A DNA stretch of 64,000 nucleotides from the NCBI GenBank assembly GCA_032622095.1, contig CP136064.1, positions 37,560,426 through 37,624,425 of the forward strand. The letters are read 5' to 3'. The translations under genes were made by a program, and so were the position numbers. Each line of letters begins with the position of its first letter. The stretch's first letter is position 1. This DNA comes from Siphonodentalium dalli (lineage: Eukaryota; Mollusca; Scaphopoda; Gadilida; Siphonodentaliidae). The notes under the pieces were generated by a model. The model saw nothing but the letters and a program-made list of their open reading frames with translations. It was not told the origin of the DNA and did no database searches. This document shows positions 4,346 to 59,343 of the stretch, piece by piece.

Positions 4346-5400
4346 TGGTCCAATTCAAGTTTAAACTACCAATTTAACTATTAAAAACCACAAATATTTC
4401 CCTCCCATTGAGCCCAAAATCCCTTCCAGGTGCCCAAATAGTTGTTGTTCAGTGCCTGCCTATATTCTAAAGTAAAACTTGACTATAGTCTGAGAGAACA
4501 CTGACTACAAGATATAATTTTATAGGCACGGGTGCTGTATGTTTCATCATGGGTGGTATGGGTTTTGGAGCGATTCCTTACCCAATGCGGCCCAATCTTT
4601 TACAAATCTTTTATGTAGATGCAGACATATCCAAAAACACTTAAAGCACTGGAGTTAAACACATATAATGGGTTACAGAGCCCAAATCATGTTCAAATAA
4701 CCAATATGACTATTAAAAAAACATAAATATCCCCCTCCCATTGATCGAGTTCAAAATCCCTTCCAGGTGCCCAAATAGTTGTTTGTTGATTGCCTGCCTA
4801 TGTGCTAAAGTCATATGTGGAATCATTTTCATAAATGAGTATAGACTGAGAGAGCACTGACCCCAAAATATGGCTTTGTAGGCAAGGGTGCTGTATGGTT
4901 TTTATCATGGGTGCTTACCCTTAAATTCAATTGAGAAGCCCAATCTTTTGCTAATCTGTTATATGGATGCAGACCTATCTAAAAACACTAAACGTTGTGG
5001 AAATAAAAGCATATAATGGTTTACAGGGCCAAATTAAAGTTGAATGTATCAATTTGACTATTAAAAACACAAATAGTCCTCTCCCCCTGGGCCCTAAATC
5101 ACTTCTTGGTGCCCAAATATTGTTTTTTCGATGCCAGCCTATATTCTAAAGTCAAATATGGAATAATTTCCAGAATGAGTGTAGCCTGATAGAACACTGA
5201 CCCCTTAATTTAACATTATTTTAGTGGCACTGTGCTGCACTGTGTGCTGTATGGTTTTATCATGGGTGCCATGGCTAGTCTCCTTTTCACCAAATCCCAC
5301 TGAGGAGCCCAAACTTTTATATAGATTCATGCCTATCCAAAAACACTAACAGTGGTGCTGTAAATAAACACATATAATAGATTGTGGTGGCCAATTCAAG
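4346..5400. repeat. Satellite-like tandem repeat, about 340 bp unit, three copies
   Basis: The words GCCCAAATAGTTGTT (about 4432, 4769 and 5112, the last diverged) and GCCCAATCTTTT (about 4589, 4939, 5308) recur at a spacing of 337-350 bp. Units also share ACACATATAATGG and CATGGGTG. They are diverged by substitutions and small indels. Short reading frames here are by-products of the repeat. Confidence 0.75.
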
Positions 5401-5407
5401 TTAAAAC

Positions 5408-5570
5408 TAGAGGTCAGATTCCATGGAATCAGATATACTTCCATGGTATCCCATTCCATGTGTGTTATGCGTATAGGTGTGTTCCTCTTCATGCGAATGC
5501 ATATTGGTGTTTTGTGTTCCGTTGGTGGACTTGCATTGACATTTCTAAATAAGATATATATTCCAAAGGT
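5408..5570. repeat. Dispersed repeat, copy 1
   Basis: The segment beginning AGAGGTCAGATTCCATGGAA matches 39331-39478 over about 150 bp in the same orientation, including CATATTGGTG and CATTTCTAAAT. The second copy ends exactly where a Helitron-like 5' end begins. Confidence 0.7.
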
Positions 5571-6099
5571 TTGTGTCATTTGGTTCGACCCACCGTGGAT
5601 GCTTAATGACAGTCTATTGCATCATGGCCGTGACCAACTGAGCCACCATTCACCCCAGCCAATCAGTTCATTTTTATTCGGTAGGGATATATTTTAGAGC
5701 TAATTATAACTCCTCCCCAAGACGCCCATATCAATTCAACGGTCACGAAATTTGGCATGTCTGATTATATCGTAATCGACATGTAGACCAAAAGGGTGTA
5801 AAGCATATTAATGTACCATAACTCTGTTGTTTCACATTTATTGGATAGTTCTTTCAGTTTCGGATTCAGAATCTTTTAGTTTTAATGGCGGAGAAAAGTC
5901 TGCTGGGTTAATTAATTAATTAGTATTTCAGTGCGTCATCGCTACACTATAGTCATTAACGTCTTTGTAATAGTGTTAACTGTAATCGAGAGATAGCTAT
6001 ATCAAATCGATAATGCTAGCTGAGTGCCAACCCGTCCGCTCTGAAACTAATGTTGTCCTTATATACTACCAAACACATGCAGTGTTCAAAATATAACAC

Positions 6100-7710
6100 A
6101 CTTGATTCGCAATTTGGCATTTTTCCCGTTTAGGAGTTTCGGTGGAATTTGCCAAAAGCCTCGACCTTCCCGGGGCGTACGCCACCTCTCCGTTGGACAG
6201 GTTACTTTTATAGTAGAGCGAACATGCCTATAGTATATCGGTGAACATATTCCTGCATTTGTCTTGCTCCTTGATCCACCACACTTATACAAACTCATCC
6301 CCATGGTATGAGGAGTCTAATTGTGTGGCTTTTATCTGTCAAATGTGGCCTCATTCGGGTCAGTGGTGTATAGAGATGAGAGAGACACAACAAATTATAT
6401 CTAAATCTAATGGCGTGGTTTAAATATGGCAAAAGTCGCGCCGTTCGCGTCAGGGGTGCCCGGAAGGGGGGGGGGGCAGATTTATTTTTCTGTCGCCGAT
6501 TGCCACGAAACTTACATATAATCATCCCCATGATATGAAGAATCCAACGGTGCGGTTTAAATATGTCAAAAGTGGTGTCGTTTGACTCAGGGATGAAGGG
6601 AAGGGGAGAGGGGCACCAAAATTGATAAAACTAATTTTAGCGCCGATTTCCACCAAATTGATATATATTCTTCTTCATGGTACAAGGAATCTAATTGTGC
6701 GACTTAACAACGCCAAATTGTTGTTTTGGATGAGAGATTGGGAGGGGTGGGCACTAAATTTTATAATAAGTCGCCGATTGCCACCACACTTATACAAAAT
6801 CATCCCCATGTTATGAGGAGTCTAATGGTGTGGCTTTTATCTGTCAAATGTGGCCTCATTCGGGTCAGTGGTGTATAGAGATGAGAGGGACACAAAAAAT
6901 TATATCTATATGTTTAGTGCCGATTTCCACCAGATTGATACATATTCTTCTCCGTGTTACGAGGAATCGTATCGTGTGGTTTAGATACACCAAATTGGTG
7001 CCCTCTGGGTGAGAGATATGGGGACCTTAAATTTGATACGAATTTGTATACTCGACAATTTTCACCAATTTCATATATATGCATCTCTAATCTCTGATGA
7101 GTCTTAGTGTGTGCAGCTTGAGTCCGAAATAGGGACGGGAGGGTCACCAAAACTGATACAAAATATGTTTAGTACCAATTACCATCAAATTCAGAAACGT
7201 TCTTCTCAAATGATACAAGAAATAAAATCGTGCTGTCTTTCTGTCTTTTTGTCTGTCTGTGTGCGTTCTATATATAACTTCACGCGGTACAATCGAGATG
7301 GCACCAAGGCGTTCTAAGAGGGGTAACTTTTTACAAGGAAGATAATGGTGCGGGTTAAATTTTTTTAAATGACGCTGTTTGTGGGAGGGGAAATTAAAAA
7401 AATATGGTGAAATAATTTTGTCGATGATTTCCACCAAACGAATACATAATCACCTTCGCAATATGGCGTTGTTCGAGTCAGCGTTGCATCAACAATTAAT
7501 TTAATAAACCAAATTCCACCAAATTCATACACGTTTTTCTCTAATGATATACCATGAATTAAATCACATTTGGTGTCGTTTGCGTCACGGATGGCGGGCG
7601 GATATGCACTATCATTGATAAGATTGCTATTCGCCGATATCCACATATAAGTTATATACAAGGCCATCTCCATATCATTATAAGTAGATGGGCGTTCACA
7701 TTTCACAATC
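6100..7710. repeat. Diverged tandem repeat, about 110-125 bp unit
   Basis: The phrase CGCCGATT-CCACCAAA-TT-ATA, then CATCCCCATG-TATGAGGA, TCTAATGGTGTGG and CAAATGTGG, recurs more than ten times with drift. One near-exact pair is 6330-6400 and 6815-6890. The many short reading frames on both strands here come from the repeat. Related sequence appears at 40500-41300 and 44280-44460. Confidence 0.65.
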
Positions 7711-12375: not shown

Positions 12376-14223
12376 ACTGGGGTGTGTTCCTTAATTTCCA
12401 CCGCGAATCGATTCGGTCATGCGTTGATGGTTCTTCGTCGTTAATGACTAATAATTACGCACGTCAGTTCGCGTTAATTGATTTATCAAGACGGGTCAAA
12501 CGGGCTTAAAGTGACTGTTAACGGGTGTCTCTCAATGTATGTATGTGTTATCGAGTTTGTTCACTATGTTCTGACATCTGATGATACAACCGGCCGTTAA
12601 ATACACAGCTGGATTAAACTTTTATACCAGCTATAAATATCGACTGTATTGATATAGTATACACGTGGCAAACACAAGTATTCGGATTATAGTCTTATAA
12701 ATCATTATTACAATAACAAATGTATCAATTTTACCTATATCGTTTATTTTGTAAACAATCTGGGTACTAAGAACAAATTATCTTGAGCCATATGTAAAAG
12801 CAAATGTAGTGAAATTAGCCGCATTTTTCAAAACACAATGCGAGAAAACATTGCGAAATGCTCAACTTCATACTAATCATATTAAATATAGTAATTAAAT
12901 CATGTGCCGAAACGTCTTCGATGACTTTCCGAAACATCCAAATGCTTGGTCCGAAATAACAATTGCCGAAACCCCAGGTGCCGAAACATCCTGAAAACTA
13001 GGTGCCGAAACGTCCATGTGCCGAAATGTCCTGCACCCGGAAAAAGTTACACCATGACGTTGTTCATCAATATTCGTTGAAATCATACGAATGTAATGAA
13101 CATTATGGAATTGACATGTCTTCTCCATATATAGTATATCAGTCGCATCGCTCACCAAGCGTCAAGAAATATATTGGTTAAATTCCGTAAAAAAGTTCAC
13201 ATCCCACTCGGCATGCATGGTATAATTATTTTCACTTTGGTGTTGGTAGTTTATACTATGTGTAGCAGACAATAAAGACTACTCGGAAATACGTTTGGTC
13301 TAATTTATAATCTAAATTATAATTGGGATCCATTCTTTCGATGAACCGTTGTGGACGAAGTGTAATTATTGATAATCAATATAGGTTATGTGAATCCGAT
13401 TAGGTCTTAGGCACGTACCGACAGGGTGTGAGTTGTCACAATCCGAACGAGGACCATAATTTTCATAGTTAGAAATTTCATGACACAAATTTCAATAGTT
13501 GGAAATTAAAAGTAACAAGTGAATCGAATGATCTAAGTGTTTCAATTTTCCGACTTCAAGTTCAGACTTGTATGTTTTACCGAACATTGCGTCATGGTCA
13601 CTAGTCTATTAGTAATGCCAAACCTCCATATCTTTCTGATAGCAGATTTAACGATATAACATTCAGCATGCATAATTGTTACCATCATATATTGCTACTT
13701 CTTGGAATTTGAATACGTGTAACTCGTATTCGCTCATCAGCCATATTCTGATTAATAGCATGTATAATGTGCATGTACTGCACGCAGACTGACGCAGTAT
13801 ACTCGAGACATAACATATGGATCAATGCTATGTCATGATTGTCATTTGTGTCTTTATTTACACAGTCCATGCTCTTAAACAGAATGTATGGAAACCCAAA
13901 TTATTAAGCCAATATTGAAATATTGCATTACTCAAAACCAAATGCTATACAGTTGGACATTTGATTAGACAAAAATCCTATATATTTGGAAATGTTATTA
14001 GACCAAATCCTGTGTAGTTGGAAATTGTATGGTCTCACCCACGGTTGGATCCATTTGGTACGTCCCTATTTGGCGGGAATACCAGGTAATATATAAACCA
14101 ATGTTGATTTAAAAAACAAAAGCTAGTTACCCCAATGTGAGTGGTTTAGCTTTGTTATTTAATTACGCTAACGCATGGTCATATTACCATATTTATTCTT
14201 GTCGACCACATCCATCGATAACT
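12376..14223. other. Intergenic stretch with a small GCCGAAAC array
   Basis: Between 12900 and 13040 the word TGCCGAAAC(A/G)TCC and variants recur about six times. At 13900-14040 diverged repeats of AGTTGGAAAT and TTAGAC-AAATCCT occur. No gene is supported. Confidence 0.45.
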
Positions 14224-14691
14224 TATATAGGAATCAGGGAGCTAAATATGTTCCAGAGTCACTATCGAATACACCGTGGAACCCTAAAGGTGAAGGATAA
14301 TTGAAGAATGGCCTTCACCTCATACAGGTGATCCATTATTTAATGATGAGATCTTGTTTATTTGATTTGTACATCATATCTAAATAATTTAAACTGGTGA
14401 ATTAATTGGGAAAAGGATTTTTGTGAGTGTGAAATTTATTTAACTAGTTGTGGTATTTCTGGGTTTTTCCAGGTAAAATTTTGCTGCGGGATAACCCTGT
14501 CTTACACCTGAGGAATTATTTCGAAAAGTAAACACTCGACCTATGGTTTTTCTTGCATTTTCAGGATGATCTGGTGTCAGTCTAACTGGGTAAACATCAC
14601 TGGAATGGCTCGGAGGCTGAAATTCTGTGAATATGGCTGAAACGTTAACACTGTCGCCTATGGGAAAACATTTAGTTCAGTGATTCCTATA
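14224..14691 (+). repeat. Left 468-bp terminal direct repeat
   Basis: Identical by eye to 18362-18829 (offset 4138). The ends are GGAATCA and TGATTCC inverted, within TATA. Internally it holds a hairpin of GGTGAAGG against CCTTCACC (about 14287-14320) and CACCTCATACAGGTG. It has no reading frame of note. It lies directly upstream of the endonuclease start codon and could contain its promoter, which is inference only. Confidence 0.9.
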
Positions 14692-14771
14692 GGAAAAACC
14701 GCCGAAATTGTAAAATTCACGTGTCTCCATGGTAAGTTGTTAGTTTCATATTTTATGATTTACAAGTAATA

Positions 14772-15152
14772 ATGGCATCATTTTGGCAAGATTTAAGGAA
14801 GAAAATGTTAGATTCATCGCAAAATAGTCCGGAGAGTGAGTGTCGTGTGTGGACGAAGGGAAAATATGGGAGATATGGCCGTGTTCGAGTGCCCTGGATG
14901 CTTTTGGATCCAGCATTACCAGGATCGGATGCTTATTTAGCACACCGAATGGCATTTCTGATTTCCAAAGAGTGGACCATTATTAATCCTGAATTTATAG
15001 GCAAAGAAGTGAGCCATCTCTGTCACAATACTTTATGCATTAATGTCAACCATTTAACGCTGGAGACGACGAGCGACAACATGAAGCGCAACGCGTGCAA
15101 GAGATTCAAAACATGTTTTGGTCACCACGCCGAACCACCATGCATGATATAA
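14772..15152 (+). CDS. His-Me finger homing-endonuclease-like protein (I-PpoI-type zinc loop)
   Basis: This intact 126-residue reading frame starts at the first ATG after the left repeat. Its C-terminal half matches the zinc-binding loop of His-Me finger homing endonucleases (zf-His_Me_endon). VSHLCHNTLCINVNHL at about residues 80-95 supplies the presumed general-base histidine (SHL) plus zinc ligands Cys-His-Cys-His. ETTSDNMKRNAC at about 98-109 supplies the metal-binding asparagine, and a CFGHHAEPPC tail gives a second zinc site. The family cuts double-stranded DNA with a beta-beta-alpha-metal fold. The N-terminal half (YGRYGRVRVPW, about residues 31-41) is less typical and may bind DNA. 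The gene faces a Mutator-like transposase on the other strand, and its 3' end overlaps that gene's open frame by about 100 bp. Such genes are known in invertebrate genomes. A role in transposition or integration here is inferred from position only. Confidence 0.8.
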   Translation: MASFWQDLRKKMLDSSQNSPESECRVWTKGKYGRYGRVRVPWMLLDPALPGSDAYLAHRMAFLISKEWTIINPEFIGKEVSHLCHNTLCINVNHLTLETTSDNMKRNACKRFKTCFGHHAEPPCMI

Positions 15153-17669
15153 ATATTTTAAAAGTAAGATTATGTTACTCACGTTGTTTTTTTTCCGTAA
15201 ACTGTATGTGTGGTCCTCATGACGACGTTTAATTTTTCGTTTATTTTTACCCGCGGGAGCATTTTTAATTTCGGTTGGTGTTTTCAACGGTAATGTTTCT
15301 TTCTCATAAGTGTCATCTTTATTATTCTGAATGTCCTTATAACTTTTGAAGAGTTGGAAGCGACGTTTATTTCTCCTAGCTTTGAAGTCAGGTGTTTCTT
15401 GTCTCAATTTATCTTGTGTCGATTTGTTCTGCAATTGATTCAGCTGTTTTGCAGAATGAGATCCGGGTGATATAGGACACAAACACTTTTGGCACAGTTT
15501 GACTATCGATTCGCCTGGACCGTTATTAACTGAATGAACCGCGCTGTGAACTCTCCCTGTATAATTCCTAGAAAATGTTGTAGATCTCGGAACAGACCTC
15601 CTGATACTTCTGTTTACAGCTTCAGATTTTTGGGTTGTCGTCCCAAATTTTGTTTTCAGCATTGCATCGCGTCCAAGTCGCCAGTTCACACACTCACGGA
15701 GTCTGTCTTCGGATATTTTGGAGCTATTTATTTTGAAATCGCTTTGTAGGTATCTGCTTTTTATGCGCCAAGTCCCTTTTGAATTGCAGGCAAACGAATA
15801 TTGTCCACACAGTTTGTGTCTTCCCTGATAACAGTCCACTATACTGTCAACAATGTATGTCAGCGCACACAATAACTTTGTAGTGTCCACTCCAAATTGT
15901 TTGTGGGCCTTATTGAGTTCGCTATTACATCGTGCCATTAAGTCATCGGAGAAGCCATTGCATACCTTCTTCCTCTCCGCTTTAGTTTTACCGGGCATGA
16001 TGTCGATAACAGGAACAGAATTTTTAAATTTTTTCCTTATACTTGCAGTAAGATGTCGAGTGTCATACAGTTGCTCAGGCTTGATGGATGATTTACCGGA
16101 GTCGTAGAACTGCTCTGCACCCATGAATGGTTTTGAGTCTTGATCCGTTGTCAGGTAATGTACAGACAGACCACTGGAATTCAGCTGTTCTAAACATTCA
16201 GTGTTCCAATCTTTCTCATTTCCAATTGTGTCAGTTGATTTTAGATTAGCACTGCATTTGGAAGAATTTGCCAAACAGTCATTTCCATTTTTGTGTTTAC
16301 CATGGTTTGCACACAGCTTGCTTTTGTTTGTGAGTGCTATAACTTGTTTCTTGTGGGTCATGTTTTCAACATGTAGGTATGAACACTGTGTTGCAGGCTG
16401 GAATGGTGTTCGTCCAACTCCAGAATATAGTGGATTTGAGTAAATTCCATCCGATTCAATGTTTATAACATCACTCTGCGCATTTCGCAATTTATTCACT
16501 TACTTCAGTTCCTCACGTCTGTGCCCCAAATCATCTGTTTTGACCTCTACTATTTGTCTGCACACCTTGTTTGATGCAGCTTGCATGCCTCTCCCAGACG
16601 GTGGTGGAATGTTACACGTCATCAACAGTTTTCGAACATTGGTATTTCCGATGGGCATCTGTGTAAGAGCAATCTGCAGGGCTTCATTAATTCTGGCAGA
16701 TTTCCGCCCTTTGTTGCCAGTTTCAATCTCATCGTATAATATGAAGTACTTAGAAATGTAGCTACATATATTGCAGCCAACTTTTTCTCTGCAGACTAAT
16801 CCTCTTCTGTCTTCGGCACCCGGAATATATGATAAATACCCAAGACAATTTGGATGGATGTGTCGATGCTCTGAAAACACGTCATTCCACATATCGGTCA
16901 TACGTTTGACGTGCACAAGCCGATATGTATCATTCTCAGCCCTGAAAAGTAAAAAAACAGCTATTCAAGTCCAAATGAATGGGATAAATCTGTTAAATTG
17001 ATTTGTGGCTCTTCAGTTGTTTATATCTTGCATATCATGCATTACAGAAATATTCGACCATTATTTTGTAGTTGGGGGGGGAGAGGGTAACTGTGCTAAG
17101 TTCTTAATTGTTGAGTGACACTGATATCTGATGTGGTATACTATACAAGATGTTTGTATTATACTGTGATATCTATATGAATGTAGGAGGCAAGCAACTT
17201 CTGGGGAGATAATTCAATCAAAGGGAGGTAATCCTATTACTTTTTATGCATTAATTAGCATTTTCAAGCAGATCAATGAGAGTTAATCCTTCTTATGGTG
17301 ACAGTGGGGATCATTTATTCAATTTTAATTATGAGTTTAGACAATTTATTGCAAGTAAATGTTGAATGTGTATATTTACCATGTATCTGTTTCCTTTCCA
17401 GCAAGAACTTTGACATCAGATGTTTCCTTGATCAGAGGTCGTAGAAGTTTTACTGTTGTTTCTTGGTTATCTGCTGGTTGAACTGGAGCGGCGATATCTG
17501 AGGTAACCATGTCATATTTGTCTTTTGGTACCCTTACGTATCTGCAACTGTCATTATCTATTACAATATCATTCACCGGCTGCATTTTTTTGTGATCAGG
17601 CTGTCTTAAACTCGAAAAACCTGTTTGTTTTAATTGCTGTATTCGGCGTAATTTTGGGATTTTAGACAT
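15054..17669 (-). pseudogene. Mutator-like transposase, two exons, one in-frame stop
   Basis: Exon 1 (17669-17380) starts at ATG and encodes about 96 residues ending KETDTW. The donor is CATG/GTAAAT. Exon 2 begins at 16941 after TTTTCAG and restores the frame (TG+G). It contains CNICSYISK, IPPPSGRGMQAASNKV, then a TAA at 16502-16500. The same frame resumes immediately with SDGIYSNPLYSGVGRTPFQP, ENMTHKKQVIALTNKSKLC, LTTDQDSKPF, YDTRHLTASIRKKF, MPGKTKAERKK and SEAVNRSIRRSVPRSTTFSR. This order matches animal Mutator-like transposase-domain proteins. The likely catalytic acids are the D of SDGIY, the D of TTDQDS and the E of SEAVNR. A Cys/His pattern (KLCGQYSFAC, LCQKCLC) and a basic tail (KNKRKIKRRH) follow. 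Only the TAA breaks the protein, and it sits inside AAGTAAGTG, a good splice-donor-like word. The frame then runs to 15054 through the end of the endonuclease gene, and true coding probably ends before that. Confidence 0.8.
16500..16502 (-). other. In-frame TAA inside transposase exon 2
   Basis: The codons read CTG AAG TAA GTG AAT on the minus strand. The protein is clearly transposase on both sides in the same frame. The simplest cause is a single CAA-to-TAA change. The stop coincides with a GTAAGTG splice-donor word, so a regulated or alternative splice there is possible but unsupported by any clear short intron. Confidence 0.8.
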
Positions 17670-18361
17670 AATTGAGCCAATTAATTCTCACAAATTATAA
17701 CAAGGAGTTTATTGTGTCAGTGTCTCAGTAAATTCCAGTCATAAAGTGAGATGTTGAATTATTTGCTTTGCTTACAAGAGCTGGGATATGATAGTGTTGT
17801 GTAATACAGAACAACCTGTTATTTCTCCTGAGGATACAGTCATATGCAAATTTGGGACTGTTTGTGCTAATTAAACAGAGTGTGCCATGCCATCTGATAC
17901 AATTTCATGCCTGAGGCTTAGTCTAATACAGTTTCATGCTGTTCACATATTTCCATTGACTGAAGCTTGCTTCATGTTGCTATTAAAGTATTTTAAATTC
18001 CCATTTTTCTGTTAAATTAGGTCCATTTTTATTATAAATTGCCAAATTCTGAAGGAAAAGAGTTAAAATTGGTCAAGATATGCCTCTCAAAATGTAGCTT
18101 AATATTTCCTCTTCAATTTAGTAATATTAGGGTGTATATGGGAATAACGCATATTTCAGATTGTACAAAATAAAAAACCTAGTTAAATTGAAAAAAAAGA
18201 AGAAAAAAAAAGTTTATTTTGATGACTGACACTAATATTCGGGAGGCATCATATTGAAAAAATAGAACCAATACTGCCCGCTAGAACTCATTTTTAGTTT
18301 CAGTAAGGTCTATATCTGGATATAATACTGTATGCAATGCCATTTAATGCATATGTACATA
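17670..18361. other. Upstream region of the transposase
   Basis: AT-rich, non-coding DNA between the transposase start codon and the right direct repeat. It should contain the promoter and 5' UTR of the minus-strand gene, but no convincing core promoter element could be picked out. A poly-purine run lies at 18190-18210. Confidence 0.4.
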
Positions 18362-18829
18362 TATATAGGAATCAGGGAGCTAAATATGTTCCAGAGTCAC
18401 TATCGAATACACCGTGGAACCCTAAAGGTGAAGGATAATTGAAGAATGGCCTTCACCTCATACAGGTGATCCATTATTTAATGATGAGATCTTGTTTATT
18501 TGATTTGTACATCATATCTAAATAATTTAAACTGGTGAATTAATTGGGAAAAGGATTTTTGTGAGTGTGAAATTTATTTAACTAGTTGTGGTATTTCTGG
18601 GTTTTTCCAGGTAAAATTTTGCTGCGGGATAACCCTGTCTTACACCTGAGGAATTATTTCGAAAAGTAAACACTCGACCTATGGTTTTTCTTGCATTTTC
18701 AGGATGATCTGGTGTCAGTCTAACTGGGTAAACATCACTGGAATGGCTCGGAGGCTGAAATTCTGTGAATATGGCTGAAACGTTAACACTGTCGCCTATG
18801 GGAAAACATTTAGTTCAGTGATTCCTATA
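18362..18829 (+). repeat. Right 468-bp terminal direct repeat
   Basis: Same sequence and orientation as 14224-14691. The outer end TGATTCC is followed by TATATAG, matching the TATATA before the left copy. Within the unit this repeat lies upstream of the minus-strand transposase, in the opposite sense to the way the left copy precedes the endonuclease. Confidence 0.9.
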
Positions 18830-18990
18830 TAGTGCGTAGAAATAACCACACGGAATATGGTGCTGTTATCCCTTACACGAACAAGTACCCTTATGATTTT
18901 CGCGATGTTTGATTAATCTGCAAGGCCAGTGTCTGGTTGAAACATTCAAACACATATATTCTTGAACTTTATTAACGCATGCCATACTAC

Positions 18991-19859
18991 TAGTGTTCGC
19001 GCTGCCACTTGCCAAATTTGCTAATGGCAAAAATAATTCAAATTTGGCAAAAAATAATTTCATTTGGCAAATCACTTTTTAATTCCTCTAGAAAAATTGA
19101 AAACAATATTGGTCAATAAACACCATTCATTTCAGGAAACTTACAATATAATTATATTAGTGGTGTTGTATATGGTTTACGAAAAGTGAACACCTCTATT
19201 AAGATGAAGTTAAGCTGATAGCATTACTATCGATCGGTGGTGGGATTTAGTGTGGAGGTGTTTACATAGCAAACCGGGGCCCCGGTGGTCCAGTCGGTAG
19301 AGTTCCAGGTGAATTACGACGTCACAGACCGTCCAGCGCCGACGAAGCTGGTTCTAACCCCGCCCTATAGAGGGTGACCGAAATCGTGTACATGGGCAAG
19401 TTTGTCAGTTGCTTTCCGGGGTCGGTGGTTTCTACACGCATTGGAACGATTTCCCGGTAAAATTAAGCCTCTGCGTGGTCTTTCCTCCATCCGTAAATTG
19501 ACAACGTCGTGTGTGGCCTAGCGGCTAGAACGACGATAAACCCTAACAAACAAACAAACATAGCAAATCCTCTTGTGATGCGCCCTTCTGATAAGGCAAC
19601 CCTTCTATCGTGTTTATTGTTTGATTATCTGTGTATTATGTGGTGATAAAGTAGAGATGCGAATATAATTATTAACTACTCGCTTTTCTATCGATATCAA
19701 AAGTTGTTCAAACCGCGAGTGTCGGAACATAAGACTCAAAGTTGCAGAAAATGATACTTCCAAGGATAGTATTTGGCCAATTTTGAAATAATTTGGCAAA
19801 CAAAAATTTAATTTGGCGAATTACATGGCAAAGTAAATTTTGGTCCAGCGGGGACCCTG
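18991..19859. mobile_element. Non-autonomous hAT element
   Basis: The ends are TAGTGTTCGCGCTGCC on the left and, as reverse complement, CAGGGTCCCCGCTGGACC on the right, a hAT-like pattern with decay. The flanks CATACTAC (18983-18990) and CAAACTAC (19860-19867) match at 7 of 8 bases, the hAT target length. Subterminal TTTGGCAAA words are abundant at both ends. There is no transposase. A SINE is nested inside. Confidence 0.6.
19274..19557 (+). mobile_element. tRNA-derived SINE with target duplication
   Basis: The head has a box A-like TGGTCCAGTCGGTAGAG and a box B-like GGTTCTAACCC, so it is tRNA-derived and probably transcribed by RNA polymerase III. A core follows, then a tail ending in CAAACAAACAAACA. 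Perfect 10-bp flanks ACATAGCAAA (19264-19273 and 19558-19567) prove an insertion. A reverse, truncated relative lies at 1463-1552. Confidence 0.85.
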
Positions 19860-40086: not shown

Positions 40087-40500
40087 TTTAATATATATTT
40101 TGGGACTTCTGTCTGTCTGTTTGTTTGTCTCTTAGCTATGACCGGGAAAACTGCTGGACGGATTTTGACAAAATTTGATAAATATGGGTACTTTTATTCA
40201 TGGAGTGTTTTTGGACGGGTCAAATCGTGACCCCCGACCAGACCTTGGCCTTCAAAAGGGTAAATCCAAGGTCAAATCGGGCAAAACAGACTTATTTCAA
40301 TGAAATTTGATACCTAGGGGTACTTTTGTCCGGGGAGTCTTTTGGTGGGTCAAATTGTGGCCCCGACCTAACATTGACCTTCGAAATGGTCCGTTCAAGG
40401 TCAAATCGGGTAAAACGAACGGATTTCGAAAATAATTTGATACCTAGGGAAACTTTTGTTCGGGGAGTGTTTTGGACAGGTCAAATCGTAACAATAGGTT
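39590..40500 (+). repeat. Tandem repeat, about 120-135 bp unit
   Basis: The unit combines GTGACC(TTGA/CCGA)CC, TTCAAGGTCAAATCGGG, TTTCGATGAAATTTGATACC, TACTTTTGTCCGGGGAGTGT and TTTGGACGGGTCAAATCGTG. About seven copies start near 39604, 39735, 39855, 39978, 40219, 40355 and 40488, interrupted at 40087-40150 by a Helitron-like 5' end. Open frames over this region are repeat by-products. Confidence 0.7.
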
Positions 40501-44640: not shown

Positions 44641-45320
44641 TTTGTCATAAAGCCTGGCTTGTGAACTCATTTTAGGACTGACATTTGTGGAAGTTAGCCA
44701 TATGACGTCGTCCATTTGCACTAAGTCCAATAACTCTGCTGAAAATATCTGACCGGACCTGGTTTGCGAACTCGTTCTAGATACTGATCAAATGAACTCA
44801 TATACCAAACATCTTTGAAATCTGTTGACATTTGTGGAAATGAGCCCTGTGACGTCGTCCATTTGCATGCAAAAAATAAACAAAGTCCAATAACTCTGCT
44901 AAAAGTATCCGGCCGGACCTGGTTTGCGAACTCGTTCTAGATAATAGTCATGTAAATTCATATACCAAAAATCTTTGAAATCCATGGACATGTGTGGAAA
45001 TGACCCCGTGACGTCGTCCATTTGCATGCAAAAAATAAATAAAGTCCAATATCTCGGCTGAAAATATCCATCCGGACCTGGTTTGCGAACTCGCTCTAGA
45101 TACTATTCATGTGAACTCATATACCAAGATCTTTGAAATCCGTTGACATTTGTGGAAATGTGCCCTGTGACGTCGTCTATTTGGTAAATTCGACAAAAAT
45201 AATAAACAAAGTCCAATAACTCCGGTAAAAATATCCGGCCGGACCTGGCTTGCAAACTCATTCTAGGTAATGGTCAGGTGAACCCATATACAAAAATCTT
45301 TGAAATCCGTTGACATTTGT
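44640..45320. repeat. Tandem repeat, about 160 bp unit, 4-5 copies
   Basis: CCGGACCTGGTTTGCGAACT recurs at about 44753, 44913, 45071 and 45239, with TTGACATTTGTGGAAATG, GTGACGTCGTCCATTTG and AAAGTCCAATAACTC between. The first unit is partial. No gene. Confidence 0.85.
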
Positions 45321-58169: not shown

Positions 58170-58586
58170 GTAAATATTTAATGTTGAATAAAAGATCAAT
58201 GAAAGTTAGAGCTATGTCAGAACATGTTGGATTATAACAGTCCTCCGAAAATTGTTCAGTTGAGCTAAAATTAATTCCAATTATTACATAACTTCTAGTA
58301 ACTCTAGCTAGCCAAGAATATAGACAACTACCTGAGGGAAAAAAGGATAATAATTCAGGCAGAGTTGGAAGGAAAGCCGAAAAAGAATAGGCTAACAAAG
58401 ACCCTGTTGTCAGGAAGGTATCTGCACAAATTGGTGAGCTTTATGTTTACGATTATTCAGGCATTTGCAGTAAATGCACAAACATTCTAAATCCACTAAG
58501 TGGGTATCCCAAGTCAAACAAGGGCTACAACTCTGGTCAAAATTGACAAAAAACAGTAGTATGTGAGTACTAGTATCCTTTTCCCC

Positions 58587-58766
58587 AAGCTGTGCTATCA
58601 CCAAACAAAACGCACAACTCAATCCGATTACCCTTGTCCATGATACAAGCTGTGCTATCACCAAACAAAACGCACAACTCAATCCGATTACCCTTGTCCA
58701 TGATACAAGCTGTGCTATCACCAAACAAAACGCACAACTCAATCCGATTACCCTTGTCCATGATAC
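58587..58766. repeat. Three identical 60-bp tandem copies
   Basis: Units 58587-58646, 58647-58706 and 58707-58766 (AAGCTGTGCTATCACCAAAC ... TTGTCCATGATAC) show no differences. The period is divisible by three, so frames on both strands stay open and repeat a 20-residue unit. The identity implies recent expansion. Confidence 0.95.
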
Positions 58767-59343
58767 ACGCTGAAATGTTCTTTCGAACACAAAATTCACA
58801 GCATGCCCAAGGACAACCAAATCTTATCATTAGCACCCGAGTTACAAGGTGGTACGGTACGTTCGGACGGACGACACGACAGATAAAGACGGGGCTGTCG
58901 GCTATATACCCCGAACCTCGTATGGGGGGTGGTGACATGACACAAGTGAAAAATAGACATGTTGAGCACATGTTTCCATGAAATCATCAACGCTGAGCAG
59001 TGAAAGCGTCAGGCACTTTTGCTAAACAAAAATTATATACATGTAGGAAAGCCTTCATTTGGCATGATTTGTAAAAAGGAAGTCCAGGTATTTGTCAACC
59101 TATTGTGATTCAAAATCGAATACTTAAAGATGCACTAGTACTTTTGAATTATAATTCTTTACGATACATGTGTACATGCCATATTCTCAAACATTCAAAA
59201 ATGTGTTCATAAGCTAGTTGCCAGACCAAAGGTAACGACGAGAGAAAGAAAGACACAGAAAAAGAAAGACAGAGACCAGTCTGAGTATTCAGATTTCGGA
59301 AGGTAAACAGATATAATTTACACAAGTGAGTGAATTGGTTAAG

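Follow-up and report, generated by a model that had tools for sequence, protein, structure and literature searches.

A KolobokP-like DNA transposon with long terminal direct repeats and an I-PpoI-like nuclease in the scaphopod Siphonodentalium dalli

KolobokP transposons were described in 2022 by Kojima and Bao (Mob DNA 13:24; PMC9587614). According to the main text of that paper, these elements have long terminal direct repeats (LTDRs) of about 450 or about 660 bp, each with its own inverted ends, and the internal region (INT) starts and ends with TATA in some families. The elements encode a DDE (Asp-Asp-Glu) transposase and, on the complementary strand, a His-Me finger nuclease that resembles I-PpoI. 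Solo LTDRs, multimers of the form (LTDR-INT)n-LTDR, and INT-INT junctions with one TATA are reported, as are duplications of 3-5 bp and a presence in seven animal phyla; some families may do without the nuclease. Kojima and Bao argue that the nuclease does not determine the integration site, and they propose a mechanism that they describe as awaiting experiment (PMC9587614). Here, we consider an element in a stretch of 64,000 nucleotides ("the window") from the genome of the scaphopod mollusc Siphonodentalium dalli (assembly GCA_032622095.1, contig CP136064.1, positions 37,560,426 to 37,624,425 of the forward strand). We are nearly certain that it is a member of KolobokP, of the class with ~450-bp LTDRs, given its anatomy, its gene order, and the features that we tested.

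A first-pass annotation of this DNA had noticed a transposase and a nuclease between direct repeats and supposed that the combination was undescribed. This did not hold: the architecture is already in the main text of PMC9587614, and the element therefore belongs to a known kind rather than to a new type. (In a full-text literature search for the name "KolobokP," that paper was the only one found.)

All coordinates below are positions in the window unless a contig is named. Sequence identity between the segments 14224-14691 and 18362-18829 is 100% across all 468 bp, and it ends there on both sides. So the direct repeats were correctly seen to be identical, but the real repeat is shorter. A comparison of the flanks of 20 insertions from the same family places the left LTDR at 14230-14687 and the right LTDR at 18368-18825, both on the forward strand and both 458 bp long. 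The match is longer than the LTDR because bases of the target site and of the interior, TATATA and TATA, coincide on both sides. The LTDR starts with GGAATCAGGGAG and ends with CAGTGATTCC, which gives it short inverted ends of its own, GGAATCA...TGATTCC (5'-RR...YY-3'). Between the LTDRs lies the INT (14688-18367), which starts with TATAG and stops with TATATA. Outside them, TATATA at 14224-14229 and at 18826-18831 forms the two halves of the target-site duplication.

The INT holds two genes, arranged tail to tail as first reported. On the forward strand, an intact open frame of 126 amino acids (14772-15152) encodes a His-Me finger nuclease with an I-PpoI-like His-Cys box, which matches PF05551 (E = 6.5e-11), in keeping with the zinc-loop nuclease of the first-pass annotation. 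The transposase is on the reverse strand. It has a predicted exon 1 (17380-17669) that begins with MSKIPKLRR, a predicted GT-AG intron of 438 bp (16942-17379) whose splice donor and acceptor can be read directly, and an exon 2 with the DDE core (15054-16941), which we delimited from reading frames, Pfam, and alignment and which joins exon 1 in frame. The transposase gene is broken, with open frames at 16503-16964 and 15057-16499 and a single in-frame TAA (16500-16502) between them. The longest reading of the transposase runs into the 3' end of the nuclease gene, and the C-terminal tail of this reading may be spurious.

The resemblance to the published KolobokP elements covers the LTDR-INT-LTDR layout, the gene order, the short duplications, the solo LTDRs, the multimers, and the INT-INT junctions with one TATA (main text of PMC9587614). 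LTDRs are 458 bp in the window's family and 448-453 or 646-648 bp in the other families, and their own inverted ends are perfect 12-mers in several families. The end types in the ~450-bp class (448-458 bp) are GGAATCA (the window), GGTTACACTGGT, GGTTACACACAA, GGTTACAGTGAA, GGTTAGAAGGAA, GGTTA[TC]AAGCAA, and GGTTA[TC]AGTA; those in the ~660-bp class (646-648 bp) are GGTGACACTCCA and GGTAGCAATACA. At several nuclease loci (e.g., L048, L051, L052, L054, L055, L057, L061, and L071), LTDRs were not clearly found, and these loci have no end type. Seven solo LTDRs have exact duplications (L013-L019). Multimers that share LTDRs include several arrays and a dimer, LTDR-INT-LTDR-INT-LTDR, whose outer ends both have TGAA (L001, C1:23980448-23989191).

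We searched the whole genome (2.227 Gb in 9 contigs) with the interior and with the repeat separately, as the first-pass annotation had proposed, and both recur. The interior gave 61 matches, of which 13, including the window, are full length at 97% identity or more. The repeat gave at least 43; this is a lower bound because 40 of 2096 first-look candidates were scored. The nuclease is matched at full length in all 13 of the near-full interiors and is free of stops in 11 of them. We then compared lists of protein matches, using three queries for the nuclease and one for the transposase; these searches also revealed many diverged KolobokP families in this genome. Among the matches listed, 128 of 150 transposases have a nuclease match on the opposite strand within 3.5 kb, and 124 of these 128 pairs are tail to tail, which places the I-PpoI-like nuclease downstream of the transposase, as in KolobokP. 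The other 22 have no nuclease match in the list that was compared. In the reverse direction, 127 of 200 listed nuclease places have a listed transposase match. The true pairing is at least 128 of 150, since the match lists are incomplete; for example, groups at C5:237-238 Mb and C7:36 Mb and many fragments are missing from the nuclease list of 200 places. The idea of a single mobile element composed of both genes and the direct repeats is thus borne out. The first-pass annotation had named transposases without a nuclease neighbor, or repeats that mostly occur alone, as observations that would count against it; such transposases and solo repeats do occur, but association is the rule.

A target-site duplication of exactly 4 bp, within the 3-5 bp reported for KolobokP, is present in 17 of 20 insertions for which both outer ends are available; the misses are L008, L011, and L012. 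This is a hand recount, and an automated count had given 16 of 23. In the recount, we dropped L020 (its left end is truncated) and both L024 and L025 (which have interior on one side, although L025 had been scored as a match), we treated L022 and L023 as one interrupted element, and we took L002 at its first 3' LTDR; L009, L021, and L023 were outside the automated 23. The duplications are TATA (three times), TGTA (twice), and TGAA, TAAA, TCAA, TGGA, TTGT, GATA, TACA, AAGA, TAGT, TAGA, TGTT, and TTTA (once each). Of these 17, 15 begin with T and 14 end with A, so the pattern is TNNA-like. These varied 4-mers are unlike a long homing site. The suggestion that the nuclease cuts or chooses the target is therefore unsupported, and as to the integration site, the main text of PMC9587614 argues likewise.

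We also compared the insertion with empty sites, another proposed check. The flanks of the element (13830-14229 and 18826-19300) belong to another abundant repeat, with at least 40 matches for each flank at 95-100% identity. When we compared 39 matches to the left flank with 39 matches to the right flank, excluding the window itself, 27 sites joined both flanks. At all 27, the flanks overlap by 6 bp, with TATATA present once where the window has a copy on both sides, and this is direct evidence of insertion. The duplication in the window reads as 6 bp, as opposed to 4 bp elsewhere, and it lies within a TA run, where slippage and a longer duplication are indistinguishable.

One more insertion is worth describing. 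At L002 (C1:211784719-211790524), a full copy stops exactly at an older LTDR (positions 4746-5663 of the locus), which is 83.5% identical. At the junction, CC-TAAA-GG, two LTDR ends are joined through a single 4-bp duplication. This suggests insertion directly at the border of a pre-existing LTDR.

I-PpoI is the His-Cys box homing endonuclease of a group I intron in Physarum. The nuclease studied here sits in its own frame between LTDRs. A profile built on eight nucleases of this genome finds I-PpoI chains, with E = 2.5e-8 at best, and the resemblance is limited to the core, SHLCH...C.N..H...N. S81, H82, H94, and N103 of the window nuclease, together with six cysteines, are invariant across the eight aligned sequences, even though nuclease identity between families is only about 30%. 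By our own reading of the alignment, these four residues probably correspond to S97, H98, H110, and N119 of I-PpoI, in the numbering of PMC9587614. I-PpoI leaves a 4-nucleotide overhang, according to the same source, which is the length of the KolobokP duplication.

The nuclease also appears to be constrained. The ratio of nonsynonymous to synonymous substitution rates (dN/dS) is 0.51 or less in 15 of the 18 pairs for which we computed it, for instance 0.12 for the window versus L026 and 0.20 to 0.38 among L036, L055, L056, and L057. One further computed pair, with 18 codons, has zero differences, and 5 of 23 pairs gave no value because the nuclease frame was missing in one or both members. 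The two lowest ratios are from pairs with saturated dS, and several of the frames are partial (64-99 codons). Judging from these ratios, purifying selection probably acts on the nuclease in most pairs, a constraint that is absent from the main text of PMC9587614 as available to us.

The front part of the transposase matches the Pfam family PF20700, "Mutator" (E = 4.4e-24); a Pfam scan of the rear part (481 amino acids) gave no match. In an open copy from the window's family, the catalytic residues are D151, D253, and E427, and H283 belongs to the motif D280xxH283. Both aspartates, the glutamate, and the histidine are invariant across seven aligned transposases. The first position of the C/DxxH motif is D or C, and the motif falls between the second D and the E in all seven, as expected for KolobokP. 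The residues of a putative zinc finger (C357, H362, C365, and C372) are also invariant in the seven. Ten of 12 other loci have the predicted intron at a length of 433-445 bp. When spliced, the frame is open for 685-725 amino acids in 6 of the 12 loci that we fetched (L001, L002, L003, L004, L006, and L007). Open copies thus exist, though the window copy is broken; there is an earlier stop in L005, L008, L009, and L012, and the landmark of exon 1 is lacking in L010 and L011. Kol0, KolobokE, KolobokH, and KolobokD share the DDE core with C/DxxH, the 4-bp duplications, and the 5'-RR...YY-3' ends, but they have other accessory proteins, and long direct repeats are peculiar to KolobokP (main text of PMC9587614).

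How might such an element work? Our best explanation, which we consider probable, is a KolobokP element that owes its mobility to the transposase and undergoes repeat exchange promoted by the nuclease. The transposase would recognize the GG...CC ends of the LTDR and would mobilize either a single LTDR or an entire unit. The I-PpoI-like nuclease would make a sequence-specific double-strand break within the element, and this break would be repaired from a neighboring repeat, by unequal exchange or by reinsertion of a circle. Such repair would keep both LTDRs alike and would add LTDR-INT units. Our data agree in part with the mechanism of Kojima and Bao, short of proof.

The relevant data are from LTDR pairs and from arrays. 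In nine elements, the two LTDRs differ at 0, 2, 2, 0, 0, 1, 5, 9, and 10 positions (mean 3.2), and LTDRs of different elements differ at 3.4 to 4.1. At alignment column 98, the left and right LTDRs agree in all nine elements (five G/G and four T/T). When the pairing of left and right LTDRs was permuted, pairs this similar were rare (P = 0.008). The concordance implies that a variant passed between LTDRs at least once, as repeat exchange would give, and this single site suggests that the LTDR pairs of an element are homogenized.

Among the matches listed, regularly spaced arrays are common and form runs of 2 to 11 units with a spacing of 3.6-5.2 kb. For example, nuclease matches form 8 units with a period of 4495 bp at C2:178.17 Mb, 9 units at C7:202.90 Mb, a run of 11 at C8:164.87 Mb, and three runs (7, 3, and 9 units) at C3:153.39-153.48 Mb. 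An LTDR is present in every array unit that we read from L029, L030, L032, and L033. In three families, arrays consist of interiors only. First, at L034 (C6:97.0 Mb, about two units read), complete interiors lie directly next to each other, with one TATA in common and no LTDR; the junction is AGCTATAGCT. Second, at L031 (C3:153.39 Mb, about two units read), units meet at CTAAAG without an LTDR, and single copies of this family (L092 and L093) have a 450-bp LTDR at the same point. The structure of the other L031 array units is indicated by their period alone, mostly 4021-4029 bp. Third, at C4:142075206-142087667 (covered in part by L027, four units read), the 883-bp interior of a short element related to the window's family recurs in a satellite-like manner. 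This region has 12 interior matches, its units are joined within a TATA run, and an LTDR match is absent at E = 1e-3. It follows that the number of units can grow without LTDRs. In the main text of PMC9587614, the longest run free of LTDRs is LTDR-(INT)4-LTDR, whereas here the listed runs at or near an interior-only period reach up to 9 units, of which we read about 2 to 4 in each array. Neither the concordance of LTDR variants nor interior-only arrays in three families is in that main text as available to us.

At C5:237.71-237.81 Mb and C5:238.14-238.32 Mb, nuclease matches recur at larger regular intervals, of about 8.6-8.7 kb and about 12.9-13.0 kb, a pattern that would fit an amplification of higher-order units.

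Several points weigh against repeat exchange promoted by the nuclease. That the nuclease cuts within the element is something we infer, and its cut site is unproven. Array growth without LTDRs opposes any model that always requires cuts inside the LTDR. The test at column 98 concerns one site, which may reflect a single ancestral event, and column 424, the sole other informative site, is discordant within L006, so the evidence for homogenization is thin. Homogenization could also be explained by repeat exchange without any nuclease. In two close pairs, the dN/dS of the nuclease is 0.84 and 1.39. For the transposase, the histidine of the CCHC finger cannot be aligned in the window's family; C197, C209, and C216 alone align across the seven transposases. 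Finally, both structure models are weak, and Foldseek found no match for either at E of 0.001 or below. The AlphaFold model of the nuclease has a mean confidence score (pLDDT) of 65, and its four best matches are all I-PpoI at nonsignificant E of 0.11 to 0.39. The transposase model has a pLDDT of 68, and its best matches, which include chains of RAG1, Transib, and Mos1, are likewise nonsignificant (E of 0.07 or more).

The alternative that survives best is that the nuclease is a selfish passenger on the transposon, and that the transposase and host recombination explain the solo LTDRs, the likeness of LTDRs, and the arrays. Under this alternative too, the element would be a KolobokP. The (INT)n arrays that expand without LTDRs fit this idea, as do the 22 listed transposases without a nearby nuclease match, and the main text of PMC9587614 allows that some families may have no nuclease. 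On the other hand, the nuclease has been retained across families at about 30% nuclease identity, its active site is invariant, and its dN/dS is low in most pairs. Retention is not decisive, as a parasite could likewise be kept. We think that the passenger idea is unlikely, while giving it real weight.

Where would the nuclease cut? The site of I-PpoI is CTCTCTTAAGGTAGC, which contains the half-site TTAA/GGTAGC (PMC6294500, as excerpted), and its cuts leave 4-nucleotide TTAA overhangs (main text of PMC9587614). We considered that the homing site of the nuclease might be the element's own border, that is, the duplication plus the LTDR end (C-TNNA-GGTNRC), descended from that half-site. The nuclease would then cut at the duplication and leave 4-nucleotide TNNA 3' overhangs; loss of an LTDR would leave one TNNA, as at INT-INT junctions, and breaks at borders would drive array growth. 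In L063, from the ~660-bp class, the duplication plus the end is exactly the I-PpoI half-site, TTAAGGTAGC; this is 1 of 9 end types. Also, C precedes TNNA on the INT side in 7 of the 9. Against this, neither the window's family (GGAATC) nor the L074 type (GGTTAG) agrees with GGTNRC, and the L049 and L073 types fit it at one end only. Furthermore, L029 and L030 have identical first eight end bases, GGTTACAC, yet the stretch between the YG and HR motifs differs greatly between their nucleases. The same ends with different likely contact residues do not support a border site, although we judged this co-variation by eye on the nuclease alignment, as the structure model is too weak for a proper test. 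The half-site match in L063 is a lead only, because GG is in all of the ends, because one exact match among 9 end types is roughly a 3% event (a rough estimate), and because the ends share ancestry. Overall, a border site seems to us a long shot.

The LTDRs also contain conserved blocks at fixed positions, which could bear on where either protein acts. Seven LTDRs from the ~450-bp class, which represent seven families, are 41-58% identical over all 21 pairs. Mean column conservation is 0.435, as compared to 0.215 for 60 shuffled alignments in which the 12 end bases were kept and the interiors were shuffled, so homology extends over the entire LTDR, and the blocks stand out as peaks above that. 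Regions that exceed the maximum of the shuffled alignments are the two ends, a pair of weaker blocks in the left quarter, a central block around CTGCG (14466-14533, forward strand), and a right subterminal block around ACGTTAACACTGTCGCCTATGG, which has the highest peak, 0.80. One of the weaker blocks, at 0.507, is barely above the shuffle maximum of 0.498. In the window, the right subterminal block is ACGTTAACACTGTCGCCTATGGGAAA (14642-14667, forward strand), with a second copy in the right LTDR (18780-18805); the consensus that we typed for this block, block B, is the window's own letters, so that the window matches it at 26 of 26 positions by construction. In the window's family, mainly the CTGCG part of the central block is retained, and the typed full block matches the window poorly. 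In the ~660-bp loci L036, L058, and L063, the typed block consensus had no good match, so the blocks are not a universal site of the nuclease. Their role may be as sites for the transposase or the nuclease, or as promoter elements. The main text of PMC9587614, as available to us, makes no mention of them.

One of the weaker left-quarter blocks carries TGATTGG, which lies about 85-100 bp from the left LTDR end in several ~450-bp families. We take this word to be similar to an inverted CCAAT box, and it might be a promoter element.

The other alternatives fare much worse. A new superfamily, in which a Mutator transposase has acquired a homing nuclease for cutting or choosing targets, would fit the Mutator-like Pfam label, the co-occurrence of the genes, and the constraint on the nuclease in most pairs. 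But Mutator/MuDR elements have target duplications of 8-11 bp and long terminal inverted repeats, whereas this element has 4-bp duplications at varied TNNA-like 4-mers and 458-bp direct repeats. Duplication length (4 bp in 17 of 20) and end structure lead us to reject Mutator proper. The transposase, which the first-pass annotation called Mutator-like, fits Kolobok rather than Mutator proper; "Mutator" is a Pfam label, and the C/DxxH motif is common to both (main text of PMC9587614). As KolobokP was described in 2022, a new type is refuted, and we see very little chance for this reading.

A chance composite, made of two independent insertions akin to miniature inverted-repeat transposable elements around two genes, would suit LTDRs that have their own inverted ends and are found solo, but the same layout recurs in 13 near-full copies and in diverged families, with one pair of duplications per whole unit, which refutes it; we give it next to no credence. 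Bacterial composite transposons and IS26 pseudo-composites also have a composite layout with ends that are mobile alone, but here the transposase is between the repeats rather than inside them, and the element is eukaryotic (compare PMC9587614, main text). The direct repeats, the solo repeats, and the near-identical repeat pairs do look like those of a long terminal repeat retrotransposon or a degenerate retroelement; we reject this as scarcely credible, since a Pfam scan of four proteins found no reverse transcriptase or integrase, the GG...CC ends have short inverted repeats, and the predicted transposase intron is kept in genomic copies.

Elsewhere in the window, there are tandem repeats at 44723-45320, 6492-6997, 40158-40489, and 58586-58772, with periods of 159, 277, 129, and 60 bp.

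Although the type of element is known, this genome has many KolobokP families along with long arrays. What is at stake is how a DNA transposon keeps long direct ends alike without reverse transcription, and what role a homing nuclease has in this. The conserved LTDR blocks and the I-PpoI-like border are short candidate sites for a cleavage assay. And the interior-only arrays suggest a DNA transposon that is becoming satellite-like DNA.

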